This document shows, in pieces, positions 33,651 through 49,544 of a DNA stretch of 64,000 bases (within the stretch, counting starts at the first letter, position 1; the number at the start of each line of letters is the position of its first letter). The notes below the pieces were generated by a model, which saw only the letters and a program-made list of their open reading frames with translations, made no database searches and was not told where the DNA came from. The stretch is taken from assembly GCF_016862915.1 (NCBI RefSeq), contig NZ_BONW01000046.1, forward strand, positions 1 to 64,000, written 5' to 3'. The position numbers and the translations under genes are program-made. Source of the stretch: Plantactinospora endophytica (GTDB lineage Bacteria; Actinomycetota; Actinomycetes; Mycobacteriales; Micromonosporaceae).

Positions 33651-33737
33651 TGTGTCCGACACAGTAATTTCTATGTGTTGATGTGTCTATACCTTCTGCC
33701 GCGCATACGTGAACTTTTGTCGGCACGGCGAAAAGTT
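33651..33737 (-). promoter_or_regulatory. Two-box operator-promoter of the sugar dehydrogenase gene
   Basis: Box A, TGTGTCCGACACAGTA (33651-33666), contains a 7-bp inverted repeat around one base. Box B, AACTTTTGTC then 5 nt then GGCGAAAAGTT (33712-33737), has perfect AACTTTT/AAAAGTT ends. On the minus strand a promoter fits between them: TTCACG (33713-33708), 16-bp spacer, TATAGA (33691-33686). Box B overlaps the -35, and box A lies 19 bases past the -10. The same layout recurs at 49455-49542. The rest of the 323-base gap shows no gene. Confidence 0.75.
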
Positions 33738-33773
33738 ACGACACCTGTTACGGCACGCGCGATCGGTCGACCG

Positions 33774-34841
33774 CTAACCGTGCCGTTCCACGGTCTCGGC
33801 CGCCAGCGTGGCGAGCACCTCGGCGGCCTCGGCGGTGAGCGGTGCCTCCGCCAGCGCGGCCAGCGCGGCGTCGGCACGTACCCTGATCATCTGCTCGATC
33901 CGGTCCAGGGCACCGGTCTCGACGATGATCGCGCGCAGCTCGGCGGCACCGTCCGGATCCAGCTCCGGGTTGCCGAACAGCGCCTTCAACCGCTGCGCCT
34001 GGGCCCGGTCGGCACTCCCTCGGGCCAGCGCCATCATCACCGTCGGCTTACCCTCCCGCAGGTCGTCCAGGATGGACTTGCCGGTCAGCGCCGGATCACC
34101 GAAGACCCCGAGCACGTCGTCGCGGAGCTGGAAGGCGTCGCCGAGCGGGTCACCGAAGGCGGCCATCGCGGCGAGCAGCTCCGGCGAACCGGCGGCCAGC
34201 GCCGCACCGATCTGCAACGGCCGGGTCACCGTGTAGCGGGCCGCCTTCATCCGGACCACGGTCAACGCGCTGGCCACCGACCCGTCGCCGACCCCGGAGA
34301 CCAGGTCGAGATACTGCCCGGCGATCACCTCGGTGCGCATGGTCGCGAAGACGCCGTACCCCTGGTGCACCTCCTCCGGGGTCAGCCCGCACTCGTGGAA
34401 GAGCTGGTCGGCCCAGGCGGCGCAGAGGTCACCGCAGAGCAGCGCGGTACTGCGGCCGTACGAGGCCGGGTCGCCGCGCCAGGCCGACCGGGCGTGCAGG
34501 TCGGCGAAGAGCCGGTGCACCGAGGGCTCGCCGCGCCGCCGGTCGCTGCCGTCCATGATGTCGTCGTGGATCAGCGCGAACGCGTGGAACAGCTCCAGCG
34601 CGGCGGCGGCGGCCACGATCGGGGTACCGTCCGCGCCACCGGCACCGCGCCAGCCCCAGTAGCAGAAGAGCGGGCGCAGCCGCTTGCCGCCGGCCAGTAC
34701 GAACCGGTGCAGGGTGGTGAAGACGCCCCGGGGGGCACCGTCCGGCCAGTCCGGGTCCTGCCGGTCGAGAAAGGCGGCGAGTTGGGCGTCGAAGCGCTTC
34801 CGTAGCTCGCCCAGATCCACCTCCGGCACGGTCGCCGTCAT
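33774..34841 (-). CDS. Polyprenyl diphosphate synthase (trans-isoprenyl type)
   Basis: 355 residues. Class I isoprenyl synthase motifs: GGKRLRPLFCYWGW, first Asp-rich motif DDIMDGSDRRRG (about 93-104), GDLCAAWADQLF, and second Asp-rich motif FQLRDDVLGVFGDP. It condenses isopentenyl diphosphate onto an allylic primer; chain length cannot be predicted safely, but geranylgeranyl size is common for this subgroup. ATG overlaps the end of eboF by 4 bases. As the last gene of the ebo-type operon it probably supplies the prenyl donor for the UbiA enzyme encoded upstream. Its stop lies only 37 bases from box B of the next promoter. Confidence 0.92.
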   Translation of the reverse strand: MTATVPEVDLGELRKRFDAQLAAFLDRQDPDWPDGAPRGVFTTLHRFVLAGGKRLRPLFCYWGWRGAGGADGTPIVAAAAALELFHAFALIHDDIMDGSDRRRGEPSVHRLFADLHARSAWRGDPASYGRSTALLCGDLCAAWADQLFHECGLTPEEVHQGYGVFATMRTEVIAGQYLDLVSGVGDGSVASALTVVRMKAARYTVTRPLQIGAALAAGSPELLAAMAAFGDPLGDAFQLRDDVLGVFGDPALTGKSILDDLREGKPTVMMALARGSADRAQAQRLKALFGNPELDPDGAAELRAIIVETGALDRIEQMIRVRADAALAALAEAPLTAEAAEVLATLAAETVERHG

Positions 34842-36283
34842 CGCCGCCTCCCCACGGCCGACGCCCCGTCCTGCGCTCCGCCGCCAGCCGGCGCCGACTG
34901 GTCGGACAGGCCGGCAAGGTGCAGCAGCAAGTTCTTGACCTCGGTGGCGGCGTACGAGTCCCGGGCCGTCGAGGGGTCCGAGCAGATCAGCACCGGGCCG
35001 TCGGCCGGATCCGCAGGCAGCCGGCCGTGCGAGCCGCGTACCGCCTTCGCGCCCGCGTCCAGCCCCACCACGCTCATCAGGTAGCGCATCCCGAGCTTCT
35101 TCCGGGCCAGCGCCACCCCGGCCCGGCGCTTCGCCGCACCCGGCGCGGCCGGGTCGAAGAACAGCTCGGCCGGGTCGTACCCGGGCTTGCGGTGGATCTC
35201 CACCAGCCGGGCGAAGTCCGGTGCCCGGGCGTCGTCGAGCCAGTAGTAGTAGGTGAACCAGGCGTCCGGCTCGGCGACCAGCACCAGCTCGCCGGCCCGC
35301 TCGTGGTCCAGCCCGTGCTCCGCCTTGCCGGCGGCGTCCAACACCTGCGCCACCCCGGGCAGCCCCGCGCAGAGCTTCGCCACCGCCGGCACGTCAGCCG
35401 GGTCCTTGACGTAGACGTGCGCGACCTGGTGGTCGGCGACCGCGAACGCCCGGGACGTCCACGGGTCCAGGTATTCCATCCCGTCCTGGGTGTAGACCCG
35501 GAGCAGCCCCTCGGCCCGGAGCAGCCGGTTCACGTCCACCGGCCGGCTCGCCTCGGTGATGCCGTACTCCGACAGCACCACCACCGTCGCGTTCCGCGCG
35601 GCGGCGGCGTCCAGCAGCGGACCGAGTACCCCGTCCAGCTCGACCGCAGCCGCCACCGCCTGCTCCGACGACGGGCCGAAGCGTTGCAGGTCGTAGTCGA
35701 GGTGCGGCACGTAGACCAGGGTCAGGTCCGGGTTCTTCTCCACCATGATCTGCTCGGCGGCCCGGCAGATCCACCGCGACGACGGCAGCCCCGCCCCCGG
35801 CCCCCAGTAGGTGAACAGCGGAAAGCCGCCCAGCTTGGAGGTCAGCTCGTCGTGCAGCTCCGGCGGGTCGGTGTAGCAGTCCGGCTCCTTGCGCCCGTCG
35901 GCGTAGTAGATCGGCCGGGGCGTCACCGTCCAGTTCACGTCGGCGCCCATCGCGTACCACCAGCAGACGTTGGCCACGGTGTAGTCCGGGCGTTCCCGGC
36001 GGGCCGCCTGCCAGACCTTCTCCCCGCCCATCAGCGCGTGGTGCTGCCGCCACAGGAAGACCTCGCCCAGGTCCCGGAAGTACCAGCCGTTGCCGACGAT
36101 GCCGTGCTCGGACGGCAACGCCCCGGTGAGCAGGGTCGCCTGGGCCGAACAGGTCACCGCCGGCAGCACGGTACCGAGTTCGGCCTGCCAGCCGGCCTCG
36201 GCCAGGGCGCGCAGCCGGGGCATGTGGGCGAGCAGTCGAGGGGTCAACCCGACCACGTCGATCACGACCAGTGGACTAGTCAT
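34838..36283 (-). CDS. EboF-like alkaline-phosphatase-superfamily phosphodiesterase
   Basis: 481 residues, start at 36283 behind AGGAGGCACG. The type I phosphodiesterase / nucleotide pyrophosphatase fold is shown by VVIDVVGL (metal Asp), LPAVTCSAQATLLTG with the Thr/Ser nucleophile, YVPHLDYDLQRFGP (metal Asp/His) and VVLSEYGI in the second metal region. There is no signal peptide, so it is cytosolic. In ebo clusters this is EboF. The reaction is unproven but probably removes a nucleotide or phosphate from an intermediate. It overlaps eboE by 8 bases and the prenyl synthase by 4. Confidence 0.88.
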   Translation of the reverse strand: MTSPLVVIDVVGLTPRLLAHMPRLRALAEAGWQAELGTVLPAVTCSAQATLLTGALPSEHGIVGNGWYFRDLGEVFLWRQHHALMGGEKVWQAARRERPDYTVANVCWWYAMGADVNWTVTPRPIYYADGRKEPDCYTDPPELHDELTSKLGGFPLFTYWGPGAGLPSSRWICRAAEQIMVEKNPDLTLVYVPHLDYDLQRFGPSSEQAVAAAVELDGVLGPLLDAAAARNATVVVLSEYGITEASRPVDVNRLLRAEGLLRVYTQDGMEYLDPWTSRAFAVADHQVAHVYVKDPADVPAVAKLCAGLPGVAQVLDAAGKAEHGLDHERAGELVLVAEPDAWFTYYYWLDDARAPDFARLVEIHRKPGYDPAELFFDPAAPGAAKRRAGVALARKKLGMRYLMSVVGLDAGAKAVRGSHGRLPADPADGPVLICSDPSTARDSYAATEVKNLLLHLAGLSDQSAPAGGGAQDGASAVGRRR

Positions 36284-37487
36284 CGTGCCTCCTCGGCGCG
36301 GATGCGGGGGCGTCGGAGTCCTCGGTCAGCCCGAGCGCGACCAGTTCGTCGCGGGCGAAAGCCAACTCGGCGGCGATGCCGCCGGCCAGCTCCGCGTCCG
36401 ATCCCGGACGCTGCGCCTCCGGCAGCACCCCCCAGGTGTACGTCTCGACGTCCAGGTGGTCGCACCCGGCGACCGGCCCGGCGAACAGCTCCCGCAGCGC
36501 GTCCCGGAGCACCGGCACGGTGGACTCCAGCGGTGCGACGGGCTCGGCGTGCAGCGGTACGTGGTAGTGCACCCGCCAGGCGCCGGGCAGGTCGGCCTCC
36601 AGCGCCGCGTCCAGGTCGTCGGCGGCGTGTGCCGGGTCGGCCGGGTCGACGGCGCCCCGGCACGGTTCGGCGCGGGTCTGGTGCAGGAAGCGCGGCTCGA
36701 CGTACCCGCGCAGGTCCTCGGCGGCGGCGACCGGGTCGGCGGCGGCCAGCGCGGCCGACACCTGCACCTTCACCACCGGCAGCCCGGCGCCGCGCAGTCG
36801 GGCCAGCGCCTCGGCGGGCTCCTCCCAGGCGCAGGCGAGATGGGCCAGGTCGAGGCAGATGCCGAGCCGGTCGGTGTCCACCCGGGACAGTGCCGCCACC
36901 GCCTGACTCGTCGACTCGACCACGCAGCCCGGCTCCGGCTCGAAGCCGACCCGCACCGCCCGGCCGGTACGCCAGGCGATCTGGGTCAGCCCGTCGGCCA
37001 GCTCGTCCAGCACCCGGGCCGCCCGGTCGGCCTGGCGCTGCTCCCACGGCTCCCGCCAGGCCAGCGGCAGGGTGGAGACCGAGCCCCGGACGGCGTCGTC
37101 GGGGAGCAGGTCGACCAGTACGGTGGCCAGGTTCAGGGTGTAGACCAGCCGCTCCCGGGTGGTCCAGTCCGGGTGGTAGACGGCCTGCTTCACCACCGGG
37201 GCGTGGAAGGACTGGTAGGGGAACCCGTTCAGGGTCACCACCTCCAGCCCGCGCGCGACCAGCTCGGCGCGCAGCTTCCGCCGGGTCTGCGGGTCGGCGG
37301 CGAGCCCGGCCGCCACCGGTGCCGCCAACCACAGCCCCAACCCGAGTACGTCGGCGTCCAGCCGTTCCCGGATCCGCACCGCGTACGTGTCGAGCTGTCC
37401 CAGCACCCCGGCCAGGTCCTCGGCCGGATGCACGTTGGTGCAGTAGCTCAGGTGCACCGTCTGCCCGTCGGCGTGCCGCAGCCGCAT
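36276..37487 (-). CDS. EboE-like TIM-barrel protein
   Basis: 403 residues. It begins MRLRHADGQTVHLSYCTNVHPAEDL, a hallmark of EboE ('metabolite traffic protein EboE'), and continues as a xylose-isomerase-like barrel with GFEPEPGCVVES, ICLDLAHLACAWEEP and VETYTWGVLPE. No transmembrane segments. In cyanobacteria the ebo genes are needed for scytonemin monomer to reach the periplasm, but the chemistry of EboE is not settled. Start ATG overlaps the TatD stop by one base (TGATG). Confidence 0.88.
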   Translation of the reverse strand: MRLRHADGQTVHLSYCTNVHPAEDLAGVLGQLDTYAVRIRERLDADVLGLGLWLAAPVAAGLAADPQTRRKLRAELVARGLEVVTLNGFPYQSFHAPVVKQAVYHPDWTTRERLVYTLNLATVLVDLLPDDAVRGSVSTLPLAWREPWEQRQADRAARVLDELADGLTQIAWRTGRAVRVGFEPEPGCVVESTSQAVAALSRVDTDRLGICLDLAHLACAWEEPAEALARLRGAGLPVVKVQVSAALAAADPVAAAEDLRGYVEPRFLHQTRAEPCRGAVDPADPAHAADDLDAALEADLPGAWRVHYHVPLHAEPVAPLESTVPVLRDALRELFAGPVAGCDHLDVETYTWGVLPEAQRPGSDAELAGGIAAELAFARDELVALGLTEDSDAPASAPRRHDD

Positions 37488-38350
37488 CAGCTACCGCCCC
37501 GCAGGATCGAGTTCCCCTCGAACGTGCCGGGCCCGGTCTCCCCCGATGCCTCGTCCGCACCCAGGTCGAGCCGGCCGGACTGGCCGTAGAACTCCACCGG
37601 GTTGCGCCAGAGCACCTGGTCGACGTCGTCGTCGCCGAAGCCGGCGGCCAGCATCGCCTCGCCGGTGGCCCGGGTCAGCAGCGGATCCGAGCGCCCCCAG
37701 TCGGCCGCCGAGTTGACCAGCATCCGCTCGGTGCCGTACTTGCGGAGCAGCTCGACCATCCGTGGCGGCGACATCTTGGTCTCGGGGTAGATGGAGAAGC
37801 CGAGCCAGCAGCCGGTGTCCCGGACCAGCGGCACGGTCACCTCGTTGAGGTGGTCGATCACCACCCGGCCGGGTTCGAGACCGGACTCGGCGATCACCGC
37901 CAGGCTGCGTTCGGTGCCCCGGGCCTTGTCCCGGTGCGGGGTGTGCACCATCGCCGGCAGCTCGTGTTCGACCGCCAGGGCGAGTTGGGCGGCGAAGACC
38001 TCGTCCTCCTCCGGGGTCATCGAGTCGTAGCCGACCTCGCCGACCGCCACCACGCCGTCCTTGTCCAGATAGCGGGGCAGCAGGTCGAGCACCTCACGGC
38101 AGCGCGGGTCGTTCGCCTCCTTCGGGTTCAGCGCGATGGTGGCGTGGTGTCGGATGCCGAACTGGGCGGCCCGGAACGGCTCCCAGCCGACCAGCGAGTC
38201 GAAGTAGTCGACGAAGGAGGCGGCACTGGTCCGGGGCTGGCCGAGCCAGAACGCCGGCTCCACCAGCGCGCGTACCCCGGCGGCGGCCATCCGCTCGTAG
38301 TCGTCCGTGGTCCGGGAAGTCATGTGGATGTGCGGGTCGAAGATCCTCAT
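37487..38350 (-). CDS. EboB-like TatD-family metal hydrolase
   Basis: 287 residues. The amidohydrolase-type start MRIFDPHIHMTSR carries the HxH metal motif. Further ligands are Glu in AVGEVGYDSMTPEE, His in MVHTPHRDKARG, His in VIDHLNEVT and Asp in NSAADWGRSDPL. A GTG one codon upstream (38353) is an alternative start. TatD relatives are Mg-dependent nucleases or hydrolases; in ebo clusters the member is called EboB and its substrate is unknown. The stop-start junction with eboA is TGATG. Confidence 0.87.
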   Translation of the reverse strand: MRIFDPHIHMTSRTTDDYERMAAAGVRALVEPAFWLGQPRTSAASFVDYFDSLVGWEPFRAAQFGIRHHATIALNPKEANDPRCREVLDLLPRYLDKDGVVAVGEVGYDSMTPEEDEVFAAQLALAVEHELPAMVHTPHRDKARGTERSLAVIAESGLEPGRVVIDHLNEVTVPLVRDTGCWLGFSIYPETKMSPPRMVELLRKYGTERMLVNSAADWGRSDPLLTRATGEAMLAAGFGDDDVDQVLWRNPVEFYGQSGRLDLGADEASGETGPGTFEGNSILRGGS

Positions 38351-39018
38351 CACGCCTCCTCGGCGCCCGACCGGGCCGGGGTCCCCGACCGGTGCAGCAC
38401 GCTCAGTCGATCAAGCAACGCGGTCGCGTCCGCCGGCATGTCCCGACCGGCCGCCCGACGTTCGTCGGCGAACCCGGCCAGCATGGTGGTCAGCTCGGCG
38501 TCGGCCCGCCGGTCGAGCCCGGAGACGGCGGACAGCGGGATCCCGGTGAAGACACACTTGAGCACCGCCTGCCGCCAGGCGGCCTGGTCGAGCCGGTCCG
38601 CGTACGGGCCGAGGGCGGCGGAGACCAGCCGGGTGTCGTTGGTCCGGATCGCGTCGTGCAGCAGTGGCACCCCGGCGTCGCCGACGGCGGGCAGCAGCGG
38701 CAGCGCCCGGAGTACCGCCCGTTTCTCGGCGGCGTCGCCGTGCCGGTAGCAGGTCTCGGCCTGACCGGGCAGTTCGGTCGGGGGCAGCGCGGCCAGCAGC
38801 AGCACCCGGGCCGCGTCGTCGGCGGTCCAGTCGGGCAGGTCGGGCAGGGGTTCCCGCCCGCACCTGCGGCCGGCCGCCGCGAACAGCCGACCGAGCGCGG
38901 CCGGCTCGCTGCCGACCCGGGCCAGCGCCTCCGTCAGCCAGTCCCGGTCGGGCAGCCGCCCGTCGGGTACGGCCAGCAGCGCCGCCCGCAGTCGTTCCAG
39001 TTCCGGTTCCGGTTCCAT
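38350..39018 (-). CDS. EboA-like protein
   Basis: 222 residues from ATG at 39018 behind GGGGAGGACCGG. Largely helical, no membrane segment. The C-terminal half contains the family block NDTRLVSAALGPYADRLDQ followed by AAWRQAVLKCVFTGIPL, which resembles the EboA consensus (ND..EAAFNQMVLKALFVGVPL). EboA has no known activity; it is the marker gene of the ebo cluster. Preceded by a 65-base gap after the TIM-barrel gene, the largest inside this operon. Confidence 0.8.
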   Translation of the reverse strand: MEPEPELERLRAALLAVPDGRLPDRDWLTEALARVGSEPAALGRLFAAAGRRCGREPLPDLPDWTADDAARVLLLAALPPTELPGQAETCYRHGDAAEKRAVLRALPLLPAVGDAGVPLLHDAIRTNDTRLVSAALGPYADRLDQAAWRQAVLKCVFTGIPLSAVSGLDRRADAELTTMLAGFADERRAAGRDMPADATALLDRLSVLHRSGTPARSGAEEA

Positions 39019-39083
39019 CCGGTCCTCCCCAGGCGTGTCGTTCCGGTGTGGATGGTGGTCGCGGTCCCCCCGGTGGTGCTCGT

Positions 39084-40106
39084 TCAGACCGGCGTGCCGG
39101 CCACCGCCCCCGGACGACCCCGCCCGCCGAGCCGAGGTCGCGCGGCCGGCACGGCGCCCGCCCCGCTGTCGGGGAGCCCGGCCTCGGCGGCGGCGGTGCG
39201 GAGAAACTCGATCGAGTGTGCCGCCACCGACGGAGCCGCGTGCGAGTGCCGGGGCAGCTCGACGGCGACCAGCCCGGCGTAACCTGCCTCTGCCAGCGCC
39301 CGCAGTACGGGCGGGAATTCGATCTCGCCGGTGCCGAACTCCAGGTGCTCGTGCACATCCCGGCGCATGTCGTCGATCTGTACGTTGACCAGGTGCGGAG
39401 CCACCTGCGCCACGCACTGCGGCACCGGCAGCGGCTCCAGGCAGCGGCAGTGTCCGATGTCGAGGGTGATGCCGAAGCGTGGCGGCTCGCCGAGTGCCTT
39501 GCGCAGCCGCCACCAGTCGGCGATCTCGGCGACCAGCATGCCCGGCTCCGGCTCGAACCCGAGCACCATCCCGGCGGCGTCGGCGACGTCGACCAGTTCG
39601 GCGCAGCCGGCGACGAGCCGGTCCCAGGCGGTCGCCGGGTCGACCTCGGCCGGGCGTACCCCGGACCAGAAGGAGACCGCCTCGGCGCCCAGGTCGGCCC
39701 CGATCGCCACGGCCCGGCGGAGGAACTCGACCCGCAGCGCGTTGTCGTCGTGCAGCAGCGTCGGCGCGTGCTTGTGCCAGGGGTCGAGCAGGTAGCGGGC
39801 CCCGGTCTCGATCACCACGCCGAGGCCGTGCGCCGCGAGGCTCCGGCCGACCGCCGCCACCCGGGCCGCCAGGTGCGGCCCGAACGGGTCCAGGTGGTCG
39901 TGGTCGAGGGTCAACGCCACACCCTGGTAACCGAGGTCGGCGATCACCCGCAGCGCGTCGTCCAGCCGATGGTTGGCGAACCCGTTGGTGCCGTAGCCGA
40001 AGCGCAGCCCGGGTAGCCCGCCGGGGCCGGCGCTCGGATCGGCGAGACCGGTCGGGCCGGGCGTCGCCAGCCGGCCCGGTGCGGTGGAGTCGGCAGCGGC
40101 GGTCAT
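39084..40106 (-). CDS. Sugar phosphate isomerase/epimerase-type TIM barrel in the ebo operon
   Basis: 340 residues. A Pro/Gly-rich N-terminal extension of about 30 residues precedes the barrel, which starts LRFGYGTNGFANHRLDDALRV. Metal-site candidates: Glu in VLGFEPEPGMLVAEI, Asp/His in GITLDIGHCRCLE, His/Asp in HLVNVQIDDMRRDVHEH and Glu in LVAVELPRHSH. Related proteins act on inosose or keto-sugars, which fits the inositol-phosphate synthase two genes upstream. It overlaps the UbiA gene by 4 bases. Confidence 0.84.
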   Translation of the reverse strand: MTAAADSTAPGRLATPGPTGLADPSAGPGGLPGLRFGYGTNGFANHRLDDALRVIADLGYQGVALTLDHDHLDPFGPHLAARVAAVGRSLAAHGLGVVIETGARYLLDPWHKHAPTLLHDDNALRVEFLRRAVAIGADLGAEAVSFWSGVRPAEVDPATAWDRLVAGCAELVDVADAAGMVLGFEPEPGMLVAEIADWWRLRKALGEPPRFGITLDIGHCRCLEPLPVPQCVAQVAPHLVNVQIDDMRRDVHEHLEFGTGEIEFPPVLRALAEAGYAGLVAVELPRHSHAAPSVAAHSIEFLRTAAAEAGLPDSGAGAVPAARPRLGGRGRPGAVAGTPV

Positions 40107-40990
40107 GTCGGCGAGACCAGTCGGGCTAGGCGGCGGCCGAGCGGGGCGGCGGCGGCCACCGCGACGCCGAGCACTGCGGCACCGGCCCGGGCGACCAGGG
40201 CGCCCTGTAGGGCGGGCAGGCCGGTGATGCCGGCGCCGACCGCCGCCCGGACCTTGGACGCCTGCGGGTCGGCCGCGACCCGGGCCTGCGCGGCGCCGTA
40301 CTGGAGGCCGTACCAGCCGGCGAGCGCGGCCGGGACCAGGGTCCGCCAGTTGGGGCTGCCGGAGGCTGCGGCCGGGTCGGCGGTACGGGGCCGGGCGACC
40401 GCGGCGGCGGCCACCGCGGCGGTACCGGCCAGCGTCGCCGCCGGCAGCGCCCGGGTCGCGCCGGAGACCTCCCGCCGGGACAGTTCGGTGACCGTGTACG
40501 TGTGCGCGGCCACCGTCAACGCCGCCGGCACCGCCCGAGCCACCCGGCCACCGCTGGCGCCGAGCAGCACGTCCAGCCCTCGGCAGGCAGCCATCACCGC
40601 CGGCCCGGCCGGAGTGTTCTTGGCCCGCAGGTCGTACGCCCAGACGGCACCGGCCAGCGGCACCGCCACGGCCAGCGCCCGGCGACCACCGGCCAGCCCG
40701 GCGAGCCCGATCCCGGCGGCGGTCAGCCCGGCCGAGACGCCGAGGGCGAACCCGGGTGAGACCCGTCCACTGGGGATCGGCCGTTCGGGCCGCTCCTTCG
40801 CGTCGAGTTCGCGGTCCGCCCAGTCGTTGGCGGCCATCCCGGCCCAGTAGAGCAGCACCGACGCGCCGGCCAGCCCTGGTACCCGACGGTCCAGCGCGTC
40901 GGCGGCGGCGGCACCGGCCACCACGTCTCCGGGTACCGAGAGCGCGGCGGGCGCCCGGACCAGTTCGGCCAGGTCACGCAGCGACGGCAT
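40103..40990 (-). CDS. UbiA-family prenyltransferase (EboC-like)
   Basis: 295 residues with about eight hydrophobic helices. The first prenyl-diphosphate/Mg motif is NDWADRELDAKERPERPIPSG (N-D-x3-D), the UbiA hallmark. The second Asp-rich site, normally DxxxD, appears only as WAYDLRAKNTPAGP in this subfamily. It would transfer a prenyl chain to a polar acceptor at the membrane. The reading frame overlaps the inositol-phosphate synthase gene by 17 bases, so the two are tightly coupled. The same UbiA-plus-inositol-phosphate-synthase pair is known from Streptomyces. Confidence 0.9.
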   Translation of the reverse strand: MPSLRDLAELVRAPAALSVPGDVVAGAAAADALDRRVPGLAGASVLLYWAGMAANDWADRELDAKERPERPIPSGRVSPGFALGVSAGLTAAGIGLAGLAGGRRALAVAVPLAGAVWAYDLRAKNTPAGPAVMAACRGLDVLLGASGGRVARAVPAALTVAAHTYTVTELSRREVSGATRALPAATLAGTAAVAAAAVARPRTADPAAASGSPNWRTLVPAALAGWYGLQYGAAQARVAADPQASKVRAAVGAGITGLPALQGALVARAGAAVLGVAVAAAAPLGRRLARLVSPT

Positions 40991-42143
40991 CCGAGTCCCC
41001 CGAAGTCGGCTCGGCGTCGAGCTGCCGGACGAAGGCGCGCAGCGTGGCCCACTGTTCGGCGAGGGCGTGCGGCACCTCGCCGAGCGGATCCTTGAAGAAG
41101 AACGCCAGTTCGGGCAGGGGGCCGGTCCGGCCGGCCCGGTGCGCGGCGGCGGTCAGCCGGGCCAGGTCGAGGACCAGCGGTGCGGCCAGCGAGGAGTCGC
41201 AGCCGTGCCAGGTGAACTCCATCCGCATCGGGGTACCGAGGAAGCCGGCGAAGGTGACCAGGTCCCAGGCGGTCTTGAAGTCGCCGATGTCGTCGACGTA
41301 CTCGATCCGGGTGTTGCCCTGCGGCACGTAGCCGAGGGTCTCGCCGAGTACCCGCTGCTTGCTGGCGGACTTGGCCGCGTTCGCCGCCGGCTCGGCCAGG
41401 TTGGCGCCGTCGCCGCCGCCGAGCAGGTTGGTGCCGGACCAGCTCCGTACCCGCAGGTGGCGCATGGCGAACATCGGGGCGAGGACCGACTTGACAAGCG
41501 TCTCGCCGGTCTTGCCGTCGTGCCCGGCGTACGGGACTCCGGCCCGCTGTGCCAACTCGGCGAGCGCGGGCAGCCGGGCACCGGTCGACGGGGTGAAGTC
41601 CACGTAGGAGCAGCCGGCGGTGAAGGCGGCGTAGGCGTACGCGGCGCTGGGCGGCAGCGGGCTGCCCTCGGCCAGCGCGGCATCCAGATCGGACAGCCGC
41701 TGGTACGCCGGATGCGCGGCCGGGGCCGGCTCGGTCGAGGAGACGTTGACCACCACCACCCGGTCGAGCCGGTGGCGTTCGCGGAAGCCGGTCAGGTCGG
41801 CGACGACCGCCTCGACGACGGCGGCCTGCGGGCCACCGGTCGGTGCCGGCCGCAGCTCGGCTTCGAGGGCGCCGATCTCGCCGGCCAGCGCCGCCACCAG
41901 CCGGGCCGGCAGTACGCCCGCCTCGGCCAGCGTCTCGGCCTTCTTGACCAGCGGCGTGGTGGCCACGTCGTGCCCGCCGAAGACCAGGTCGGCCAGGGCT
42001 GGCAGGGCCGCGCTACGCAGGGCCGGCAACTCGGTCACACAGCCGGTCGGTTCGGCCAGCCCGGCCCGCAGGGCCAACGCCCCGACCATGCTGGTCACCG
42101 CGACCGAGCCACGTCCGCCAACCAGCCAGACACCCGTACGCAT
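40974..42143 (-). CDS. myo-Inositol-1(3)-phosphate synthase family protein
   Basis: 389 residues. ATG at 42143 has AGGAG upstream. The NAD-binding start VWLVGGRGSVAVTSMVGALAL and the conserved blocks VVVVNVSSTEP, GHDGKTGETLVKSVLAPMF (active-site Lys region), SWSGTNLLGGGDGANLAEP, RIEYVDDIGDFKTAWD and TWHGCDSSLAAPLVLDLARL are diagnostic for inositol-phosphate synthase. It converts glucose 6-phosphate to myo-inositol 3-phosphate by NAD-dependent cyclisation. In most ebo clusters another sugar cyclase-like enzyme (EboD, dehydroquinate-synthase fold) occupies this place, so here a different cyclitol-forming enzyme appears to substitute. First gene of the eight-gene operon. Confidence 0.92.
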   Translation of the reverse strand: MRTGVWLVGGRGSVAVTSMVGALALRAGLAEPTGCVTELPALRSAALPALADLVFGGHDVATTPLVKKAETLAEAGVLPARLVAALAGEIGALEAELRPAPTGGPQAAVVEAVVADLTGFRERHRLDRVVVVNVSSTEPAPAAHPAYQRLSDLDAALAEGSPLPPSAAYAYAAFTAGCSYVDFTPSTGARLPALAELAQRAGVPYAGHDGKTGETLVKSVLAPMFAMRHLRVRSWSGTNLLGGGDGANLAEPAANAAKSASKQRVLGETLGYVPQGNTRIEYVDDIGDFKTAWDLVTFAGFLGTPMRMEFTWHGCDSSLAAPLVLDLARLTAAAHRAGRTGPLPELAFFFKDPLGEVPHALAEQWATLRAFVRQLDAEPTSGDSDAVAA

Positions 42144-42231: not shown

Positions 42232-42248
42232 CCGATACTGCCTATCGG
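42232..42248 (-). promoter_or_regulatory. Inverted repeat upstream of the ebo-type operon
   Basis: CCGATA-CTGCC-TATCGG, perfect 6-bp arms, about 90 bases before the first start codon and in a locally AT-richer patch. Candidate operator or promoter element; no known consensus matched. Confidence 0.4.
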
Positions 42249-42630: not shown

Positions 42631-42671
42631 GTCCGGTGCGGCCGGGGAATCCCGGTCCGGCCGCACCGGAC
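42631..42671 (-). terminator. 15-bp hairpin downstream of the ROK-ABC-dehydrogenase operon
   Basis: GTCCGGTGCGGCCGG (42631-42645) pairs perfectly with 42657-42671 across 11 nt. It lies 246 bases past the last stop of the sugar operon and probably separates it from the ebo-type operon. Confidence 0.6.
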
Positions 42672-42916
42672 GGCCGTGTCACCTGTCGCACGCCACGCCC
42701 GGAGCAGGGCTCCGGCGCGTACGCGCACTCCTTCCGGATCGACCTCCATCCGGTCGCGGGGCGCAACCGCGGCCGGACCCTCGCCGGTCACTCCGGAAAG
42801 TCTCGGGTCGGGGTCGCCGGCCCGAGGGCCGGGCCACCCGACGGGTGGACAACTACCTCCGGCGGTGCCGGCTTCGCGCCCGAGGACGGGAAGCCGGCGT
42901 ACGCCGGTCGAACGGG

Positions 42917-44125
42917 TTACGCGGTGACCGGGGCGGGCACCTGCTCCACCGCCGTCCAGGACGAGCCCAGCTCCGCCGACCGCGCCACCGCGTCCAGCAC
43001 GAGCTGGACCTGGAGCGCGTCGGCGAACGAGGGAGTCGGGTCCGACCCGGTGGCGATCGCCGCGAGGAAGTCCCGCAGCTCGTGCGTGAACGAGTGCTCG
43101 TACCCGATGATGTGCCCCGGCGGCCACCAGGCCGCCATGTACGGGTGGTCGCCCTCGGTCACCAGGATCCGCCGGAAGCCCTGCTCGGCGCCGGGTTCGG
43201 TGGCGTCGAAGAACTCCAGCTCGTTGAGGCGTTCGAGGTCGAACGCCACCGAGCCGAGCGAACCGTTGATCTCGACCCGCAGCGCGTTGCGCCGTCCGGC
43301 GGCGAACCGGGTCGCCTCGTAGGTGGCGAGCCCGCCACCGTCGAGCCGGGCCACGAAGACCGCCGCGTCGTCGACGGTGACCTGCCCCATCGCGGCACCG
43401 GCGCCGTCGGCCGAGGCGGCCAGGCCGCTCGACTCGGCGGGCAGCGGGCGCTCCTTGACGAAGGTCTCGGTGATCGCGCTGACCCCGCTGATCCGCTGCC
43501 CGGTGACGAACTGGGTCAGGTCGATGATGTGTGCACCGATGTCGCCGAGCGCACCGGACCCGGCCTTGTCCTTCTGGAGCCGCCAGACCAGCGGGAACTG
43601 CGGGTCGGTGATCCAGTCCTGCAGGTAGACGGCGCGGACGTGCCGGATCACGCCGAGCCGGCCGGAGGCGACCAGCTCCCGCATCAGGCTGACCGCGGGA
43701 ACCCGGCGGTAGTTGAACCCGCACATGGCCCGTACGCCCACCGTCTGGGCCTTGGCCGCCGCGGCGGCCATGGCCCGAGCCTCCTCGACCGTGTTGGCGA
43801 GCGGCTTCTCGCACAGTACGTGCTTGCCCGCCTCCAGGGCCGCGATGGTGATCTCGGCGTGGCTGTCGCCGGGGGTGCAGACGTCGACGATGTCGATGTC
43901 GTCCCGGGCGATCAGCTCACGCCAGTCGGTGGTGTGCCCGTCCCAGCCGAGCCGGCCGGCCGCGTCGGCGACCTTGGACTCGTCCCGGCCGCAGACCAGG
44001 GCCATCCGGGCCCGTACCGGCAGGTCGAAGACGCGGTTCACGGTCCGCCACGCCTGTGAGTGCGCGGCGCCCATGAACGCGTAGCCGACCATGCCGACCC
44101 GCAGTTCTTTCTCGTTCGTGGACAA
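42917..44125 (-). CDS. Gfo/Idh/MocA-family oxidoreductase
   Basis: 402 residues. N-terminal Rossmann domain with VGMVGYAFMGAAHSQAW (GxGxxG-like), the DIDIVDVCTPGDSHAEI strand and the catalytic EKP motif in HVLCEKPLANTVEEA (about 106). The C-terminal domain carries GALGDIGAHIIDLTQFVTG with the conserved Asp/His pair used for sugar oxidation. Members oxidise sugars, often at C3, with NAD(P). Last gene of the ROK operon, 21 bases after the binding-protein gene. It probably oxidises, or re-reduces, the imported sugar. Confidence 0.92.
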   Translation of the reverse strand: MSTNEKELRVGMVGYAFMGAAHSQAWRTVNRVFDLPVRARMALVCGRDESKVADAAGRLGWDGHTTDWRELIARDDIDIVDVCTPGDSHAEITIAALEAGKHVLCEKPLANTVEEARAMAAAAAKAQTVGVRAMCGFNYRRVPAVSLMRELVASGRLGVIRHVRAVYLQDWITDPQFPLVWRLQKDKAGSGALGDIGAHIIDLTQFVTGQRISGVSAITETFVKERPLPAESSGLAASADGAGAAMGQVTVDDAAVFVARLDGGGLATYEATRFAAGRRNALRVEINGSLGSVAFDLERLNELEFFDATEPGAEQGFRRILVTEGDHPYMAAWWPPGHIIGYEHSFTHELRDFLAAIATGSDPTPSFADALQVQLVLDAVARSAELGSSWTAVEQVPAPVTA

Positions 44126-44146
44126 GGTGGGTCTCCCCCCGGTGTG

Positions 44147-45229
44147 TCAGAACCCGAGCTTGGTGTACGCGCTCGCGTTCTCTTTCGTGATCGTCTCGGA
44201 GGCCAACGTGATCTCCTTGGGCACCTGCAGCTCGACCAGGTCGGACATGCCCTTCCCCTGGCCGATGAGCCGGGCCAGCGAGATCGCCGACGAGGCCATC
44301 GAGGGGCTGTAGGTGACCGTTGCCTTCAGGACGCTGTTGTCGGCCGCGATGGCCTGGATGGCCGCGAGGGAGCCGGCACCGCCGACCATGATGAACTCGG
44401 AGCGGTTGGCCTGCTTGACCGCGGCCAGTACGCCGATGCCCTGGTCGTCGTCGTGGTTCCACAGCGCGTCCATCTTGGGCAACGCCCGGAGGAGCTGCGA
44501 GGCTTCGGCCTGGCCGGTGTCGGCGGTGAACCGGGCGGCGCGCCGGTTGGCCACCTTGAAGCCGAGCACGGCCAGCTCGGCGGCGAAGCCGGCGGACCGC
44601 TCCTTGGTCAGCTCCAGCTCGTCCATGCCGGCGATCTCGCCGATGATCGGGTTGGTGATGCCCTTGGCCTTCATCTGCTCGCCGATGTAGCGGCCGGCGG
44701 CGACGCCCATGCCGTAGTTGTCGCCCTTGATCTGGAGCCGGTAGGCCAGCGCGTCCGGGAACGCCCGGTCCAGGTTGACCACCGGGATGCCGGCCTTCAT
44801 CGCCTCCAGGCCGGAGGCGTTCAGCTCCTTGCCGTCGTGCGGCAGCATCACGATCACGTTCGGCTTCTGCGAGATCAGCGTGGACAGTGCGGCCCGCTGG
44901 GCTGCCGCGTCCGCGCCGGCGGCGACCGTCTTGAACTCGACGTCCGAGAAGACCTTCGCCTGCGCCTCGGCGTTCTTGGTGATGGCGGCGAGCCAGCCGT
45001 GGTCGGCGGCCGGCGCGGAGAAGCCGATCACGACCTTCTGACCGGGGGCGCTGTTCGGGTTGGCCGAGCTGTCCGCCGCCTTGACCTGCTCGTTCCCGCC
45101 GGAACCGTCGCCGGTGTCGTTGCTGGTGCAGGCGGTGAGCAGGGCGCCGGCGCCGACCGCCGCCCCGCCGAGCAGCAGCCGGCGGCGGGACAGGTCGCGC
45201 ACCGGCCGGAGCGGATCGTGCTGGGTCAT
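44147..45229 (-). CDS. Sugar ABC transporter substrate-binding lipoprotein
   Basis: 360 residues. ATG at 45229 follows AGGAGGTCGTC. The N terminus combines a twin-arginine motif (DLSRRRLLLGG) with a lipobox (LLTAC), so it may be exported folded through Tat and then lipidated. The mature part is a periplasmic-binding-protein type I (ribose/LacI-like) fold: VVIGFSAPAADHGWLAAITKNAEAQ, NVIVMLPHDGKELNASG, IPVVNLDR and ALWNHDDDQGIGVLAAV. It captures a monosaccharide or small glycoside for the permease encoded downstream of the ATPase. Ligand unknown. Confidence 0.92.
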   Translation of the reverse strand: MTQHDPLRPVRDLSRRRLLLGGAAVGAGALLTACTSNDTGDGSGGNEQVKAADSSANPNSAPGQKVVIGFSAPAADHGWLAAITKNAEAQAKVFSDVEFKTVAAGADAAAQRAALSTLISQKPNVIVMLPHDGKELNASGLEAMKAGIPVVNLDRAFPDALAYRLQIKGDNYGMGVAAGRYIGEQMKAKGITNPIIGEIAGMDELELTKERSAGFAAELAVLGFKVANRRAARFTADTGQAEASQLLRALPKMDALWNHDDDQGIGVLAAVKQANRSEFIMVGGAGSLAAIQAIAADNSVLKATVTYSPSMASSAISLARLIGQGKGMSDLVELQVPKEITLASETITKENASAYTKLGF

Positions 45230-45343
45230 GACGACCTCCTGATATTCGACTTCGTGTGGGGTGAAGGGTGGGTGGGGTCCGCCGGCCGGTGACCGGGTAC
45301 GGCCACCGGCGGCGGGCGCCACCGGGGGATGTGCTGCGGTGCG

Positions 45344-46474
45344 TCAGTTCGTCGAGCTGAGCTTGTTGCGGGCGAGAAGCTGGGTCAGCGACTTGAACCG
45401 GAACTGCTGGACCAGCACGGCGGCGACGATGATGCCGCCCTTGACCATGTTCTGCGCCTCGGTGGAGAGGCCGTTGATGGCGAACAGGTTGGTGATGGTG
45501 GCGAAGATGATCACGCCGAGCAGGGAGCCGACGATGGTGCCCCGGCCGCCGCTGAGCAGCGTGCCACCGATGATCGCCGCGGCGATCGCGTCGAGTTCGT
45601 AGAGGTTCGCCATCGCCGCCTGCGCGGAGTTGGCCTGCGCGGTGAGCATGATCGCGGCGATACCGCAGCAGAGGCCGGAGAGCGCGTAGAGCAGCATGCT
45701 GTGCCGGCGTACGTTGATGCCGGCCAGCCGGGCCGCCTCCGGGTTGCCGCCGACCGCGACCGTACGCCGGCCGAAGGTGGTGCGGTTGAGCAGCACCCAG
45801 CCGGCCGCGACCACTCCGGCGAGGATGTAGACCAGCACCGGGATGCCGAGGATGTCGTTGCTGGCGATCCCGTTGATGGTCGCGTTGTTGGAGACCTGGG
45901 TCTGCTTGTCGGAGATCTCGGCGGCGAGACCCCGGGCGGCGACCAGCATGGCCAGGGTGGCGATGAACGGCACCAGCCGGCCGTACGAGATCAGGAAGCC
46001 GTTGACCAGGCCGACGCAGACCGCCACCACGATCGCGGTGAAGATCATCCCACCGGCGCCGTAGCTCTGGGTCGCGACCGTGGTGCTCCAGACCCCGGCC
46101 AGCGCCACGATCGCGCCGACCGAGAGGTCGATGCCGCCACCGATGATCACGAATGTCATGCCCACGGTGACCACGCCGACCACCGAGGCCAGGGTGAGGA
46201 TCGACATGATGTTGTCGCCGACCCAGTTCATGTCGCCGTAGAGGTCGGGGCGGGTGATGATGCCGATGATGATCAGCACCACCAGTACCCCGACCAGGCC
46301 CAGGTTGCGCCGGAACGACTCACCCGCGTCGCCGCTCCACCGACCGTTCCCGTTGCCGGGCGCGCCGGCACCCTTGTGCGCCGGCGCTCCGGCCGGCGCC
46401 GGCGACACCGGCGTGGGCCGGTCCGCCGGCGGCGCCGCCGCGGCCGGCGCGGCGGTCTCGGTACGTTCGGTCAC
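45344..46474 (-). CDS. Ribose-type ABC sugar permease
   Basis: 376 residues. A Pro/Ala-rich cytoplasmic N terminus of about 50 residues precedes eight to ten transmembrane helices. RbsC-family marks are MTFVIIGGGIDLSVGAIVALAG, FIATLAMLVAARGLA and AIIGGTLLSGGRGTIVGSLLGV near the ATPase-contact loop. It overlaps the ATPase gene by 4 bases. Single permease gene, so a homodimer is expected. Confidence 0.93.
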   Translation of the reverse strand: MTERTETAAPAAAAPPADRPTPVSPAPAGAPAHKGAGAPGNGNGRWSGDAGESFRRNLGLVGVLVVLIIIGIITRPDLYGDMNWVGDNIMSILTLASVVGVVTVGMTFVIIGGGIDLSVGAIVALAGVWSTTVATQSYGAGGMIFTAIVVAVCVGLVNGFLISYGRLVPFIATLAMLVAARGLAAEISDKQTQVSNNATINGIASNDILGIPVLVYILAGVVAAGWVLLNRTTFGRRTVAVGGNPEAARLAGINVRRHSMLLYALSGLCCGIAAIMLTAQANSAQAAMANLYELDAIAAAIIGGTLLSGGRGTIVGSLLGVIIFATITNLFAINGLSTEAQNMVKGGIIVAAVLVQQFRFKSLTQLLARNKLSSTN

Positions 46475-48153
46475 GCTGGCGCCCCCTCCATAAGCGACCC
46501 CGCCATGACGAGGTCGAGCACAGTGTCTTCGTCGAGTTCTCCGGCCGGCGCCTCGTGCACGACCCGGCCCTCCCGCATCACCAGTACGCGGTCGGCCAGG
46601 CCGAGCACCTCGGGCACCTCGCTGGAAACGAGCAGTACGCCCACTCCCCGGGCGGCCAGCGCCCGGATCACCTGGTAGAGCTCGGCCCGGGCGCCCACGT
46701 CCACGCCCCGGGTCGGCTCGTCGAGCAGCAGCAGTTTCGTGTCGCCGAGCAGCCAGCGGCCGACGACGACCTTCTGCTGGTTGCCGCCGGAGAGCGTCCG
46801 GACCGGTCGCCGGACGTCCCGGGGCCGCAGCTCCAGCCGGTCGGCGACCTCGTTCGCCTCGGCCCGTTCCCGGCCCGCGTCGGTGAAGCCCAGCCGGGCC
46901 CAGCGGGTGAAGGTGGCCAGCGTGACATTGCGGTAGACCGGCTCGCCGAGCAGCAGCGCCTGGCTCTTGCGCTCCTCCGGCGCCATTCCCATCCCGGCCC
47001 GGACGGCGGCGCCGACGCTGCCCGGCCGGACCTGCCGGCCGGCCATCGACACCGTGCCGGAGCTGGCCCGGCGGGCGCCGAAGATGGTCTCCAGCAGTTC
47101 GGAGCGGCCCGAGCCGACCAGGCCGGCGATGCCGACGATCTCACCGGCGTGCACGCTCAGCGAGACGTCCGCGAACTCGCCCTCCCGGGCGAGCTGGCGG
47201 ACCTGGAGCAGTTCGTCGCCGGCCGGCGCGTCGGCCGGGCGGTCCGGGAAGACGTACTCGATGGTCCGGCCGGTCATCCGGCTCACCAGGTCGCGGGTCG
47301 GGGTGGTCCGGGCCGGCAGGTTCGCCGCCGTGGTCCGGCCGTCCTTGAGGACGGTGACCCGGTCGCCGATCTCGCGGATCTCCTCCATCCGGTGCGAGAT
47401 GTAGATGACCGCGATGCCCTGGGCGGTCAGCTCCCGGATGATCCGGAACAGGTTGCCAACCTCGTCGTGGGCCAGCACGGCGCTCGGCTCGTCCATGATG
47501 ATCAGTCGCGCCTCGTGCGAGAGCGCCCGGGCCATGCTGACGATCTGCTTGCCGGCGGACGGCAGCGTGCGGACCATCCGGCGGGGCGGGATCTCCGGGT
47601 GCCCGAGCCGGGCCAGGATCTCCCGGGTACGCCGGGCCATGTAGCCGCGCCGGACGAAGCCGAACTGCTTCGGCTCGTGCCCGAGGAAGGCGTTCTCACC
47701 CACCGACAGGTCCTCGACCAGGTCGAGTTCCTGGTAGATGGTGGCGATGCCGGCCTTCATCGCGGCCTGCGGGTTGCCGAACGAGACGGCCTCGCCGAGC
47801 CACTCCACCTGCCCGGAGTCGGGCTGGTGCGCGCCGGAGAGGATCTTGATCAGTGTCGACTTGCCGGCACCGTTCTGGCCGAGCAGGCAGTGCACCTCGC
47901 CGGCCCGCACCTCCAACTGCACCCCGTCCAGGGCGCGTACCCCGGGGAAGGTCTTCACCACGTCGGTGAGCCGGAGCACGACCTCGCCGGGCACCGTGTC
48001 GGCGGGCGGGGTGACCAGTGGCGGCGGGTCGCCGGCCGGACCGGTCCCGTTCGGGCTGTCGACGCCGTCGGGGGCGTCCACCGCGTCCGGGTTGTCGACG
48101 GCGGTCGGCCCGGCGGCCTGCACCTGCTCGTCGGGGCGCTTATCGTCAGTCAT
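46471..48153 (-). CDS. Sugar ABC transporter ATPase with two nucleotide-binding domains
   Basis: 560 residues. An acidic/Pro-rich N-terminal tail of about 50 residues is followed by two ABC domains, as in RbsA/MglA. Domain 1: Walker A GQNGAGKST (about 95), Walker B IIMDEPSAVL, then YISHRMEEI. Domain 2 has the degenerate Walker A GLVGSGRSE, signature LSGGNQQKVVVGR and Walker B LLLDEPTRGVDVG. The usual asymmetry of this class, one active site and one degenerate site, is visible. Second gene of the ROK operon. Confidence 0.94.
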   Translation of the reverse strand: MTDDKRPDEQVQAAGPTAVDNPDAVDAPDGVDSPNGTGPAGDPPPLVTPPADTVPGEVVLRLTDVVKTFPGVRALDGVQLEVRAGEVHCLLGQNGAGKSTLIKILSGAHQPDSGQVEWLGEAVSFGNPQAAMKAGIATIYQELDLVEDLSVGENAFLGHEPKQFGFVRRGYMARRTREILARLGHPEIPPRRMVRTLPSAGKQIVSMARALSHEARLIIMDEPSAVLAHDEVGNLFRIIRELTAQGIAVIYISHRMEEIREIGDRVTVLKDGRTTAANLPARTTPTRDLVSRMTGRTIEYVFPDRPADAPAGDELLQVRQLAREGEFADVSLSVHAGEIVGIAGLVGSGRSELLETIFGARRASSGTVSMAGRQVRPGSVGAAVRAGMGMAPEERKSQALLLGEPVYRNVTLATFTRWARLGFTDAGRERAEANEVADRLELRPRDVRRPVRTLSGGNQQKVVVGRWLLGDTKLLLLDEPTRGVDVGARAELYQVIRALAARGVGVLLVSSEVPEVLGLADRVLVMREGRVVHEAPAGELDEDTVLDLVMAGSLMEGAPA

Positions 48154-48223
48154 GACGTCTCCTCGGCGCGCTCGTCGTCACGACCTGACCGACTGAACTG
48201 GTCGATGCTTCCACTCCGCTCGA

Positions 48224-49402
48224 TCATGACGCCTCCGCGAAGGCGACGTCGGTGGCGAGTACGGCCGCGCCGGTGACCCCGGCCCGCGGACCGAGCTCGG
48301 AGAGCACCACCGGCAGGTTGCCGGTGGCCAGCGGCAGTGAACGCCGGTAGACCACGCTGCGAATCTCCGCCAGCAGGATGTGGCCGAGCTGGGCCAACCC
48401 GCCGCCGATGACGATCATCGACGGGTTGGCGAAGCTGACCAGGCCGGCGAGTACGCCGCCGACCCGTCGCCCGCCGTCGCGGATCAGCCGGATGCAGGTC
48501 ACGTCGCCCTCGATGGCACCCTCGGCGACGTCGAGCGCGCTGACCGAGCCGGTCGCGGCGAGCCGCTCGGCCAGGGCCGGCGAGGCACCGCTGCGGGCCG
48601 CAGCCAGGGCCTCCTTGGCCAGGGCCGCGCCGCTGAACAGCGCCTCCAGGCAGCCGACGTTGCCGCACGAGCACATCGGGCCGTGCGAGTCGACCTGGAT
48701 GTGCCCGATGTCGCCGGCACAGCCGTCGGTGCCCCGGTAGACCTCGCCGGAGAGGTAGATCCCGCAGCCGATCCCGGTGCCGATCTTGACGAACAGGAAG
48801 TCGTCGACCGAGTGCGCCACCCCGCCGTGCCGCTCCCCGATGGCCATTATGTTGACGTCGTTGTCCACCACCGCCGGGCAGCCGTGCTCCCTGGTCAGCA
48901 GCTCGCGTACCGGGAAGCGGTCCCAGCCGGGCATGATCGGCGGGGAGACCGGTACGCCGTCCCGGAAGCTCACCGGCCCCGGTACGCCGATGCCGACGGC
49001 GTGCAGCCGCTCGTACGCCCCGTCGACCTTGGCCTTGTGCAGGAGTTCGTGTACCCGTTGCAGGATGACCTTGGGGCCGGAGCGGATGTCGGTCGTCTCG
49101 GCGTACGCGGCGACGGGTTCGAGCCGGCCGTTCACCACCTCGACGTCGATCGAGCTGGCGCCCAGGTCGACGGCGGCGAACCGCAGGTCGGGGCTGAGTT
49201 CGACAAGCGTGGAGCGGCGTCCGCCCCGGGAGGCGGCCAGTCCCGCCTCCGCGACGTAGCCGAGGCCGACCAACCGCTCCAGTTCGGCGAGCAGGCGTGG
49301 CCGAGGAATCTGCAAACGGTCCGCGAGCTCGGCCCGGGATACCGCGCCCTCGTCGCGCAACAGCCGCAGCAGCCGCAGATGCAGCGCTTCCGGGGTGCGC
49401 AC
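48224..49402 (-). CDS. ROK-family transcriptional repressor
   Basis: 392 residues from GTG at 49402, with GGAGGTGAC upstream. Winged helix-turn-helix at about 1-65 (RLLRDEGAVSRAELADRLQIPRPRLLAELERL). The ROK domain follows, with FAAVDLGASSIDVEVVNG (ATP-site-like), VGIGVPGPVSF and IGTGIGCGIYLSG. The zinc motif CSCGNVGCLE at about 241-250 is complete, as in sugar-responsive ROK repressors. First gene of a five-gene operon (ROK, ATPase, permease, binding protein, dehydrogenase). It probably binds the boxes in its own promoter and the matching boxes 16 kb away, released by the transported sugar. Confidence 0.93.
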   Translation of the reverse strand: MRTPEALHLRLLRLLRDEGAVSRAELADRLQIPRPRLLAELERLVGLGYVAEAGLAASRGGRRSTLVELSPDLRFAAVDLGASSIDVEVVNGRLEPVAAYAETTDIRSGPKVILQRVHELLHKAKVDGAYERLHAVGIGVPGPVSFRDGVPVSPPIMPGWDRFPVRELLTREHGCPAVVDNDVNIMAIGERHGGVAHSVDDFLFVKIGTGIGCGIYLSGEVYRGTDGCAGDIGHIQVDSHGPMCSCGNVGCLEALFSGAALAKEALAAARSGASPALAERLAATGSVSALDVAEGAIEGDVTCIRLIRDGGRRVGGVLAGLVSFANPSMIVIGGGLAQLGHILLAEIRSVVYRRSLPLATGNLPVVLSELGPRAGVTGAAVLATDVAFAEAS

Positions 49403-49454
49403 AGGGAGTCACCTCCGTCAGGCTCACGTTCACGTCGACGCAACGCCAGCGCGT

Positions 49455-49544
49455 TGTGTTCGACACAGTAGGAGCCTTCCGGAGTGGATGTCTAGAGCTT
49501 CATCCAAGATGACGCTAACTTTTGTCCTAACGGACGAAAGTTAG
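49455..49544 (-). promoter_or_regulatory. Two-box operator-promoter of the ROK operon
   Basis: Box A is TGTGTTCGACACAGTA (49455-49470). Box B is AACTTTTGTC then 5 nt then GGACGAAAGTT (49517-49542), inside a 13-bp inverted repeat (49515-49527 with 49532-49544, one G-T pair). On the minus strand TTAGCG (49518-49513), 16-bp spacer and TCTAGA (49496-49491) form a promoter. Box B overlaps its -35; box A lies 20 bases past the -10 and 53 bases before the GTG. The layout is almost identical to that at 33651-33737. Confidence 0.78.

Follow-up and report, generated by a model that had tools for sequence, protein, structure and literature searches.

NagC and Mlc are ROK repressors of Escherichia coli. 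In Corynebacterium glutamicum, CysR and SsuR are ROK-type activators; according to the accessible text of that report, their sites consist of two 10-bp inverted motifs 6-8 bp apart, and at four activated promoters the CysR repeats, with T-rich and A-rich arms, are located upstream of the -35 (PMC2580772). The stretch of DNA analysed here, called the window, comprises 64,000 nucleotides of Plantactinospora endophytica (contig NZ_BONW01000046.1, positions 1 to 64,000) and contains two promoters sharing an inverted repeat, box B. One promoter precedes an operon encoding a ROK protein, an ABC importer and a Gfo/Idh/MocA dehydrogenase, the other a gene encoding a predicted secreted glucose/sorbosone dehydrogenase (GSDH); domain annotation confirmed the genes that a previous sequence-only reading had named downstream of both. 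From comparison of sequences, we propose with reasonable though incomplete confidence that box B is the putative ROK operator of an upstream-activated regulon, which would join sugar import with secreted 3-keto-sugar genes.

At both window promoters, box B has the format of a 10-N6-10 inverted repeat, with 22 bp separating it from the downstream -35 (Table 1). Its arms, AACTTT...AAAGTT, are T-rich on the 5' side and A-rich on the 3' side, matching the operator style described for ROK proteins. The -35 was assigned to TAGACA and the -10 to TACTGT since a pair of this type, 17-18 bp apart, recurs across the 85 ROK promoters that could be parsed; transcription starts are predicted. The sequence-only reading had taken TAGACA for the -10, with box B over the -35 and a second shared element, box A, about 20 bp past the -10. 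These assignments had to be revised, as box B stops upstream of the -35 and box A overlaps the -10 and the predicted start. The positions given for the boxes were correct: the two copies of box A are identical at 15 of 16 bases, and boxes A and B follow each other in the same orientation at offsets of 61 and 62 bp. This difference results from spacers of 17 and 18 bp, so that the constant distance is the one from box B to the -35 and not from box B to box A.

The whole genome (9,684,624 bases, 90 contigs) was then searched for the box forms. The box A core TGTGTNNGACACA occurs in only two places, the window promoters, with none for the reversed-pattern control. The box B dyad AACTTTNNNCNNNNNNGNNNAAAGTT is found without mismatch at the same two places only; a third genomic place appears with one mismatch, the control giving one match per strand at up to one mismatch. 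The ordered A-B pair occurs twice, against none in the control. The likeness of the boxes therefore goes beyond chance, and their frequent occurrence at unrelated promoters is ruled out by the scans of this genome, of 150 genomes of the family Micromonosporaceae and of 243 genomes outside it.

Conservation was studied in 87 upstream regions of ROK genes (80 named loci, six congener loci and the window), allowing -35-like sites 8-40 bp from box B. In the 85 regions parsed, the computed distance from box B to the -35 is 22 bp in 75, 23 bp in eight and 21 bp in two; the spacer is 18 in 65 and 17 in 20, and a -10 of the form TANNNT is present in all 85. The -35 is TGGAC or TAGAC in 80 promoters, TTTAC in four and TGGAG in one, and TTGAC was found in none of the 85 although the parser allowed it. 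For the GSDH gene, 18 of 20 upstream regions were parsed (18-26 bp allowed), with distances of 22 bp in 16 and 23 bp in two. The regions left unparsed were those of loci L108 and L121 for ROK and of L108 and L113 for GSDH. A distance of 22 bp was also observed in 11 promoters of a third target, described below, and in three other listed promoters. Within the seven genomes of the window genus, four congeners again have both sites, at 15.8 to 16.4 kb from each other, and the start of contig C314 of a fifth congener, G104, carries box B and a leader element, box C, at the offset seen in the window. The two promoters, 16 kb apart, belong to one conserved gene neighbourhood. The only Streptomyces locus, from Streptomyces brasiliensis, has by our reading a box B-like site followed after 22 bp by TGGAGC and then by TATCGT. 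Its ROK ortholog, 83% identical, has the same promoter layout, possibly as a result of transfer from one family to another.

A search that was not anchored on genes was performed on the 150 family genomes with the half-site CAAAAGTT, a gap of 14-30, TRGAC, a gap and TANNNT. It returned 84 matches by our count, in 63 genomes, against five for the reversed control. The downstream gene was assigned in 30 loci out of the 84 matches, the ROK genes being known there by their N-terminal reading frame; the gap is 22 in 29 loci and 21 in one. Downstream genes encode ROK in 20 loci, a PA14/3-keto protein in five and GSDH in one. One further locus has ThuA downstream on the same strand, and at L197 a FIMAH protein is encoded downstream and ThuA on the opposite side; the protein downstream of L195 has a lamin-tail domain and that of L196 begins alike. 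The five PA14-domain proteins are 69-73% identical to a protein encoded on contig C28 of the P. endophytica genome, whose promoter represents the third target and recurs in five congeners.

A ROK match (E<=1e-60) was obtained in 49 of 61 family genomes scanned, covering 34 of 44 genera sampled, and the strict pattern was computed in 24 of these 49 genomes versus none of the 12 without a ROK match (Fisher p=0.0019). In the P. endophytica genome, one ROK match was recorded at this threshold among the 31 of 53 first-look candidates that were scored. A control outside the family used 246 genomes of the class, 243 of which lie outside it; these gave five pattern matches versus 16 for the reversed control by our counts, and by our reading none of the five has a gap of 22. 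The split ROK regulon suggested by the sequence-only reading is therefore well supported as far as box B is concerned, with a layout kept at both promoters in several genera, a uniform function class of targets and an occurrence restricted to genomes with a ROK match among the 61; the part that concerned box A does not. A partial literature search, mostly without subscription papers, retrieved no description of a box B operator or regulon.

In the ROK protein, PF00480 covers residues 76-385 and the NagC model residues 12-381, and the ROK regulators 1z05 and Lmo0178 of the PDB align from residues 13 and 10. At 1e-5, Pfam gave no match to a model of the ROK DNA-binding region on its own. The cysteine-rich zinc motif of ROK transcription factors, CxCGxxGCxE, is present as CSCGNVGCLE. 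The proximity of its gene to the sites, the site at its own promoter, the ROK-type arms and the matching distribution make this protein the best candidate, and probably the binder, of box B. It would occupy the 10-N6-10 repeat, whose centre lies at about -70 relative to the predicted start and whose end is 22 bp away from a weak downstream -35 (TAGACA/TGGACA), and would contact RNA polymerase from there. The ligand setting the switch is probably an imported sugar or 3-keto-sugar. The bound protein would then turn on the ABC-import/dehydrogenase operon to which its gene belongs, together with the GSDH-ThuA genes and the gene of at least one other predicted secreted protein that carries a 3-keto-disaccharide-hydrolase domain. 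Activation is probably at work rather than repression, since the near-constant distance to an off-consensus -35 and a site clear of the core promoter fit activation from about -70.

Several observations weigh against an activating ROK operator at box B. Most counts were made over orthologs and are therefore not independent, the independent units being a handful of promoter families. The parser accepted only T-N-GAC, TTTAC and TGGAG as -35, and the last two joined it after being seen in a few loci. The strict pattern misses 25 of the 49 ROK-bearing genomes, some of which show box B by eye, and two of the 30 loci (L195 and L196) are without the left half-site yet keep the gap of 22; they were counted as misses. 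In congener G092 the ROK site is present and the GSDH site was not found, and at the GSDH promoters of genus g4 box B is degraded to 12-14 of 19 positions. Other box-B-like sites of the P. endophytica genome have a different promoter spacing, such as C13:683853, which precedes a TIM barrel and a ThuA-GSDH protein; C16:472911 lies near a TIM barrel, C13:83240 lies by ABC ATPase and ThuA-GSDH-like genes, and four weaker sites are found at C13:710069, C28:41288, C28:125275 and C45:7184. ROK paralogs of some relatives have similar sites, so that another ROK protein could bind some of them. Finally, unlike box B, which stands 21-23 bp and mostly 22 bp from the -35, the CysR site is placed 3 bp from it in the accessible text, which puts box B nearly two helical turns further upstream (PMC2580772).

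The likeness of ROK and GSDH leaders extends past box A, their profile similarity at the best register (46 ROK and 13 GSDH leaders, near-duplicates removed) lying above all 2000 column shuffles. Box C is a further element shared by the leaders and overlooked in the sequence-only reading. In leaders of both kinds its core, TTNCGTCGANGTGAAC, keeps a nearly constant distance to the -10. The counts for boxes A and C rest on 70 ROK promoters because a stricter parser missed 17 of the 87 regions. At offset 27, 41 of the 70 ROK leaders match box C at 12 or more of 14 positions, and 15 of the 18 GSDH leaders do so at offsets 24-27, random windows attaining a score of 12 with a probability of 0.00055; box C scores 13 in promoter L197. 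In many ROK orthologs it makes up one arm of a dyad in the leader. Paired cells amount to 73.7% versus 22-40% in slid versions and 65.5% (sd 1.2) in shuffles, and double-changed cells to 44 versus 21.8 (sd 4.1) over 55 related leaders, an ungapped count on related sequences in which a palindrome in the DNA would look no different. We put forward only tentatively a promoter class of the family in which ROK would activate from a fixed position near -70 together with a conserved transcript-start element. That the right half of box A and box C would form a second control layer alongside box B, as a DNA site or an RNA element, appears somewhat doubtful despite these scores and the leader dyad. The third-target leaders are without box C, with scores of 5-7 in 10 of 11 and of 10 in L177; L198 and L202 reach no more than 9. 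GSDH leaders fail to adopt the hairpin of the ROK leader, RNAalifold predicted no structure from a gapped MAFFT alignment of 55 leaders, and Rfam gave no match at E<=1 for either window promoter. Moreover, all seven genus genomes contain copies of box C at other places, with one mismatch at most. As a separate observation, inspection by eye showed short inverted repeats in the GSDH leaders of several genomes (GTTAC..GTAAC and AACCG..CGGTT, at 33590-33640 in the window).

The same operator and regulon could instead be served by a ROK protein that represses until the sugar releases it, in the manner of Mlc and NagC. Repression is the commonest ROK behaviour and most characterised ROK regulators repress, which counts against activation here, and induced catabolic operons typically show the order regulator-transporter-enzyme. 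However, box B overlaps neither the -35, the -10 nor the start, and its distance to the -35 is held at 21-23 bp over the 85 parsed ROK promoters, in which the -35 is uniformly off consensus. In the accessible text on CysR, sites at the four activated promoters are upstream of the -35 and candidate sites at a repressed gene overlap the promoter. As a repressor, the protein bound upstream would hinder polymerase recruitment or seed a complex reaching the promoter. Repression is unlikely but deserves serious attention.

It is improbable that the two promoters are old duplicates whose likeness outside box B was inherited without function. In favour of this reading, the ROK and GSDH leader profiles match best near equal register, at a shift of 2, zero shift ranking second. 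The spacers and the 22-bp gaps have nevertheless largely diverged, while box B, the -35, the -10 and box C stayed.

The sequence-only reading had also proposed that boxes A and B, in fixed geometry, are both operators, bridged by one ROK protein or bound by two regulators. The 13-base core of box A scores at least 11 in 47 of 70 ROK promoters, where it is conserved beyond the needs of a -10, and the A-B pair is unique to the two window places in this genome. Among the 18 GSDH promoters the core scores 13 in the window, the only one where box A is a perfect palindrome, 11 in three congeners and 10 in two g19 genomes. Only these six reach at least 10 of 13; the other 12, one congener among them, show just 4-7 matches. 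Box A was not seen at the 11 third-target promoters, whose start regions are unrelated. Its near-identity in the window is thus due in part to the shared -10 and is in part lineage-specific. Low matches at 12 of 18 GSDH promoters and absence at the third target led us to reject the view of box A as another site for ROK. That both boxes are operators, bridged or bound separately, is very improbable, as these same results do not support it, no second site of like sequence was found at the regulated promoters, box A is unlike box B and unlike the RokB-type ROK sites given in the accessible text, and the A-B distance shifts with the spacer while box B stays 22 bp from the -35. Within the reading that we favour, and with the same confidence, box A corresponds to the -10 together with the start region, and its conservation is chiefly at the ROK promoter. 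The claim of a regulon is upheld and extended, that of a two-box operator is not.

The ROK promoter precedes the genes for the ROK protein, ABC ATPase, permease, sugar-binding protein and Gfo/Idh dehydrogenase. A gap of about 0.76 kb separates the latter from an ebo-type run encoding inositol-phosphate-synthase-like, SCO3242-type prenyltransferase, TIM-barrel and EboA-domain proteins, followed by TatD-like, EboE, phosphodiesterase and polyprenyl synthase proteins; the GSDH promoter lies between the end of this run and the GSDH gene. With NCBIfam, bit scores exceeded the cut-offs for EboE (412.6/250), the SCO3242 prenyltransferase (381.9/260) and the EboA domain (164.6/50), and were below them for EboC (120.2/250), the EboA family (76.1/320), the levoglucosan dehydrogenase LgdA model NF052479 (363.9/650) and, for the ROK protein, the NagC and Mlc equivalogs (156.2/650 and 127.1/530). 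An Ino1-like gene of ebo type is present in the same locus in 37 of the 80 named loci, which are of limited length, 36 times downstream of ROK and once upstream. ROK-like genes 52-58% identical to the window ROK were noticed near the cluster in L122 (5026-6253), L228 (11639-12799) and L229 (1447-2607), the first with a weak box-B-like site upstream. In L171, a single open reading frame (12242-13903) combines sigma-70 region 2 with an alpha-L-arabinofuranosidase B (AbfB) domain.

Table 1. Promoter elements and genes of the window, and third-target promoters located elsewhere.
Feature	Location	Strand	Remarks
Box B, ROK promoter	49517..49542	-	AACTTTCGTC-N6-GACAAAAGTT; N6 = CGTTAG
-35, ROK promoter	49489..49494	-	TAGACA; 22 bp from box B
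-10, ROK promoter	49465..49470	-	TACTGT; spacer 18
Box A, ROK promoter	49455..49470	-	TACTGTGTCGAACACA; -10 plus start region, begins at the -10
Box C, ROK leader	49428..49443	-	TTGCGTCGACGTGAAC; 27 bases from first base of the -10
Box B, GSDH promoter	33712..33737	-	AACTTTTCGC-N6-GACAAAAGTT; N6 = CGTGCC
-35, GSDH promoter	33684..33689	-	TAGACA; 22 bp from box B
-10, GSDH promoter	33661..33666	-	TACTGT; spacer 17
Box A, GSDH promoter	33651..33666	-	TACTGTGTCGGACACA
Box C, GSDH leader	33624..33639	-	TTACGTCGAGGTAACC
ROK-family transcription factor	48224..49402	-	392 aa, GTG start; Pfam PF00480 3.8e-53; candidate box B binder
ABC transporter ATPase	46471..48153	-	Two ABC_tran stretches
ABC permease	45344..46474	-	BPD_transp_2
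Sugar-binding protein	44147..45322	-	Peripla_BP_4
Gfo/Idh/MocA dehydrogenase	42917..44125	-	Best NCBIfam model levoglucosan dehydrogenase, below cut-off
Ebo-type cluster	33774..42140	-	Behind the ROK-ABC-dehydrogenase operon
GSDH-PKD-CBM6-ricin B protein	30562..33450	-	Signal-peptide-like start judged by eye
ThuA-3-keto-disaccharide hydrolase-CBM6-ricin B protein	28349..30493	-	Next gene after GSDH
TIM3, AP_endonuc_2 TIM-barrel protein	26963..27970	-	Conserved neighbour
Third-target promoter, P. endophytica	C28:60238-60314		Precedes predicted secreted PA14, F5/8, 3-keto-disaccharide hydrolase protein
Third box-B promoter, L171	L171:8239-8320		Own conserved start region CCAGGCA; before predicted secreted PA14/F5-8/3-keto-disaccharide hydrolase protein

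For a ROK regulator matched in 34 of the 44 genera sampled, these results supply a concrete putative operator, the spacing that it follows and a list of targets, and the question of activator versus repressor becomes directly testable. They link a transporter operon with GSDH, ThuA and 3-keto-hydrolase proteins that are predicted to be secreted, and the Ino1-like ebo-type gene of the locus offers a lead on the sugar or cyclitol used by the cluster. If the proposal is true, a ROK class of fixed position would join sugar import and secreted 3-keto-glycoside enzymes under one sugar signal, with the ebo-type cluster perhaps under the same signal.

When compared with known systems, the window ROK protein resembles NagC and Mlc in matching both models nearly full length, with scores far below the equivalog cut-offs. 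Like the CysR site, box B is a 10-N6-10 inverted repeat upstream of the -35, CysR being concerned, in the accessible text, with sulphur metabolism (PMC2580772). The actinobacterial ROK protein RokB of Streptomyces coelicolor has a novH site (...AAGTTTGTTC...GAACAAAGCTT...) with the same style of arms; unlike box B, this site overlaps the start codon, the regulon is proposed for amino acids, and the accessible text describes no fixed promoter geometry for RokB sites (PMC4856308). As far as the accessible text goes, the locus is also similar to the levoglucosan clusters lgdA-lgdB1-lgdC in its Gfo/Idh, PF01261, ABC importer and ROK neighbours, and differs from them by a dehydrogenase below the levoglucosan cut-off and by the presence of GSDH/ThuA genes and an ebo-type cluster (PMC10066097). 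The EboE, SCO3242-type prenyltransferase and EboA-domain matches recall the ebo cluster in the accessible descriptions, to which the window run adds inositol-phosphate-synthase-like and polyprenyl-synthase genes and a position behind a ROK-ABC operon (PMC5133447, PMC6282210). The system adds a new regulon to an already known family of regulators, and its promoter geometry is unusually strict and widely kept.

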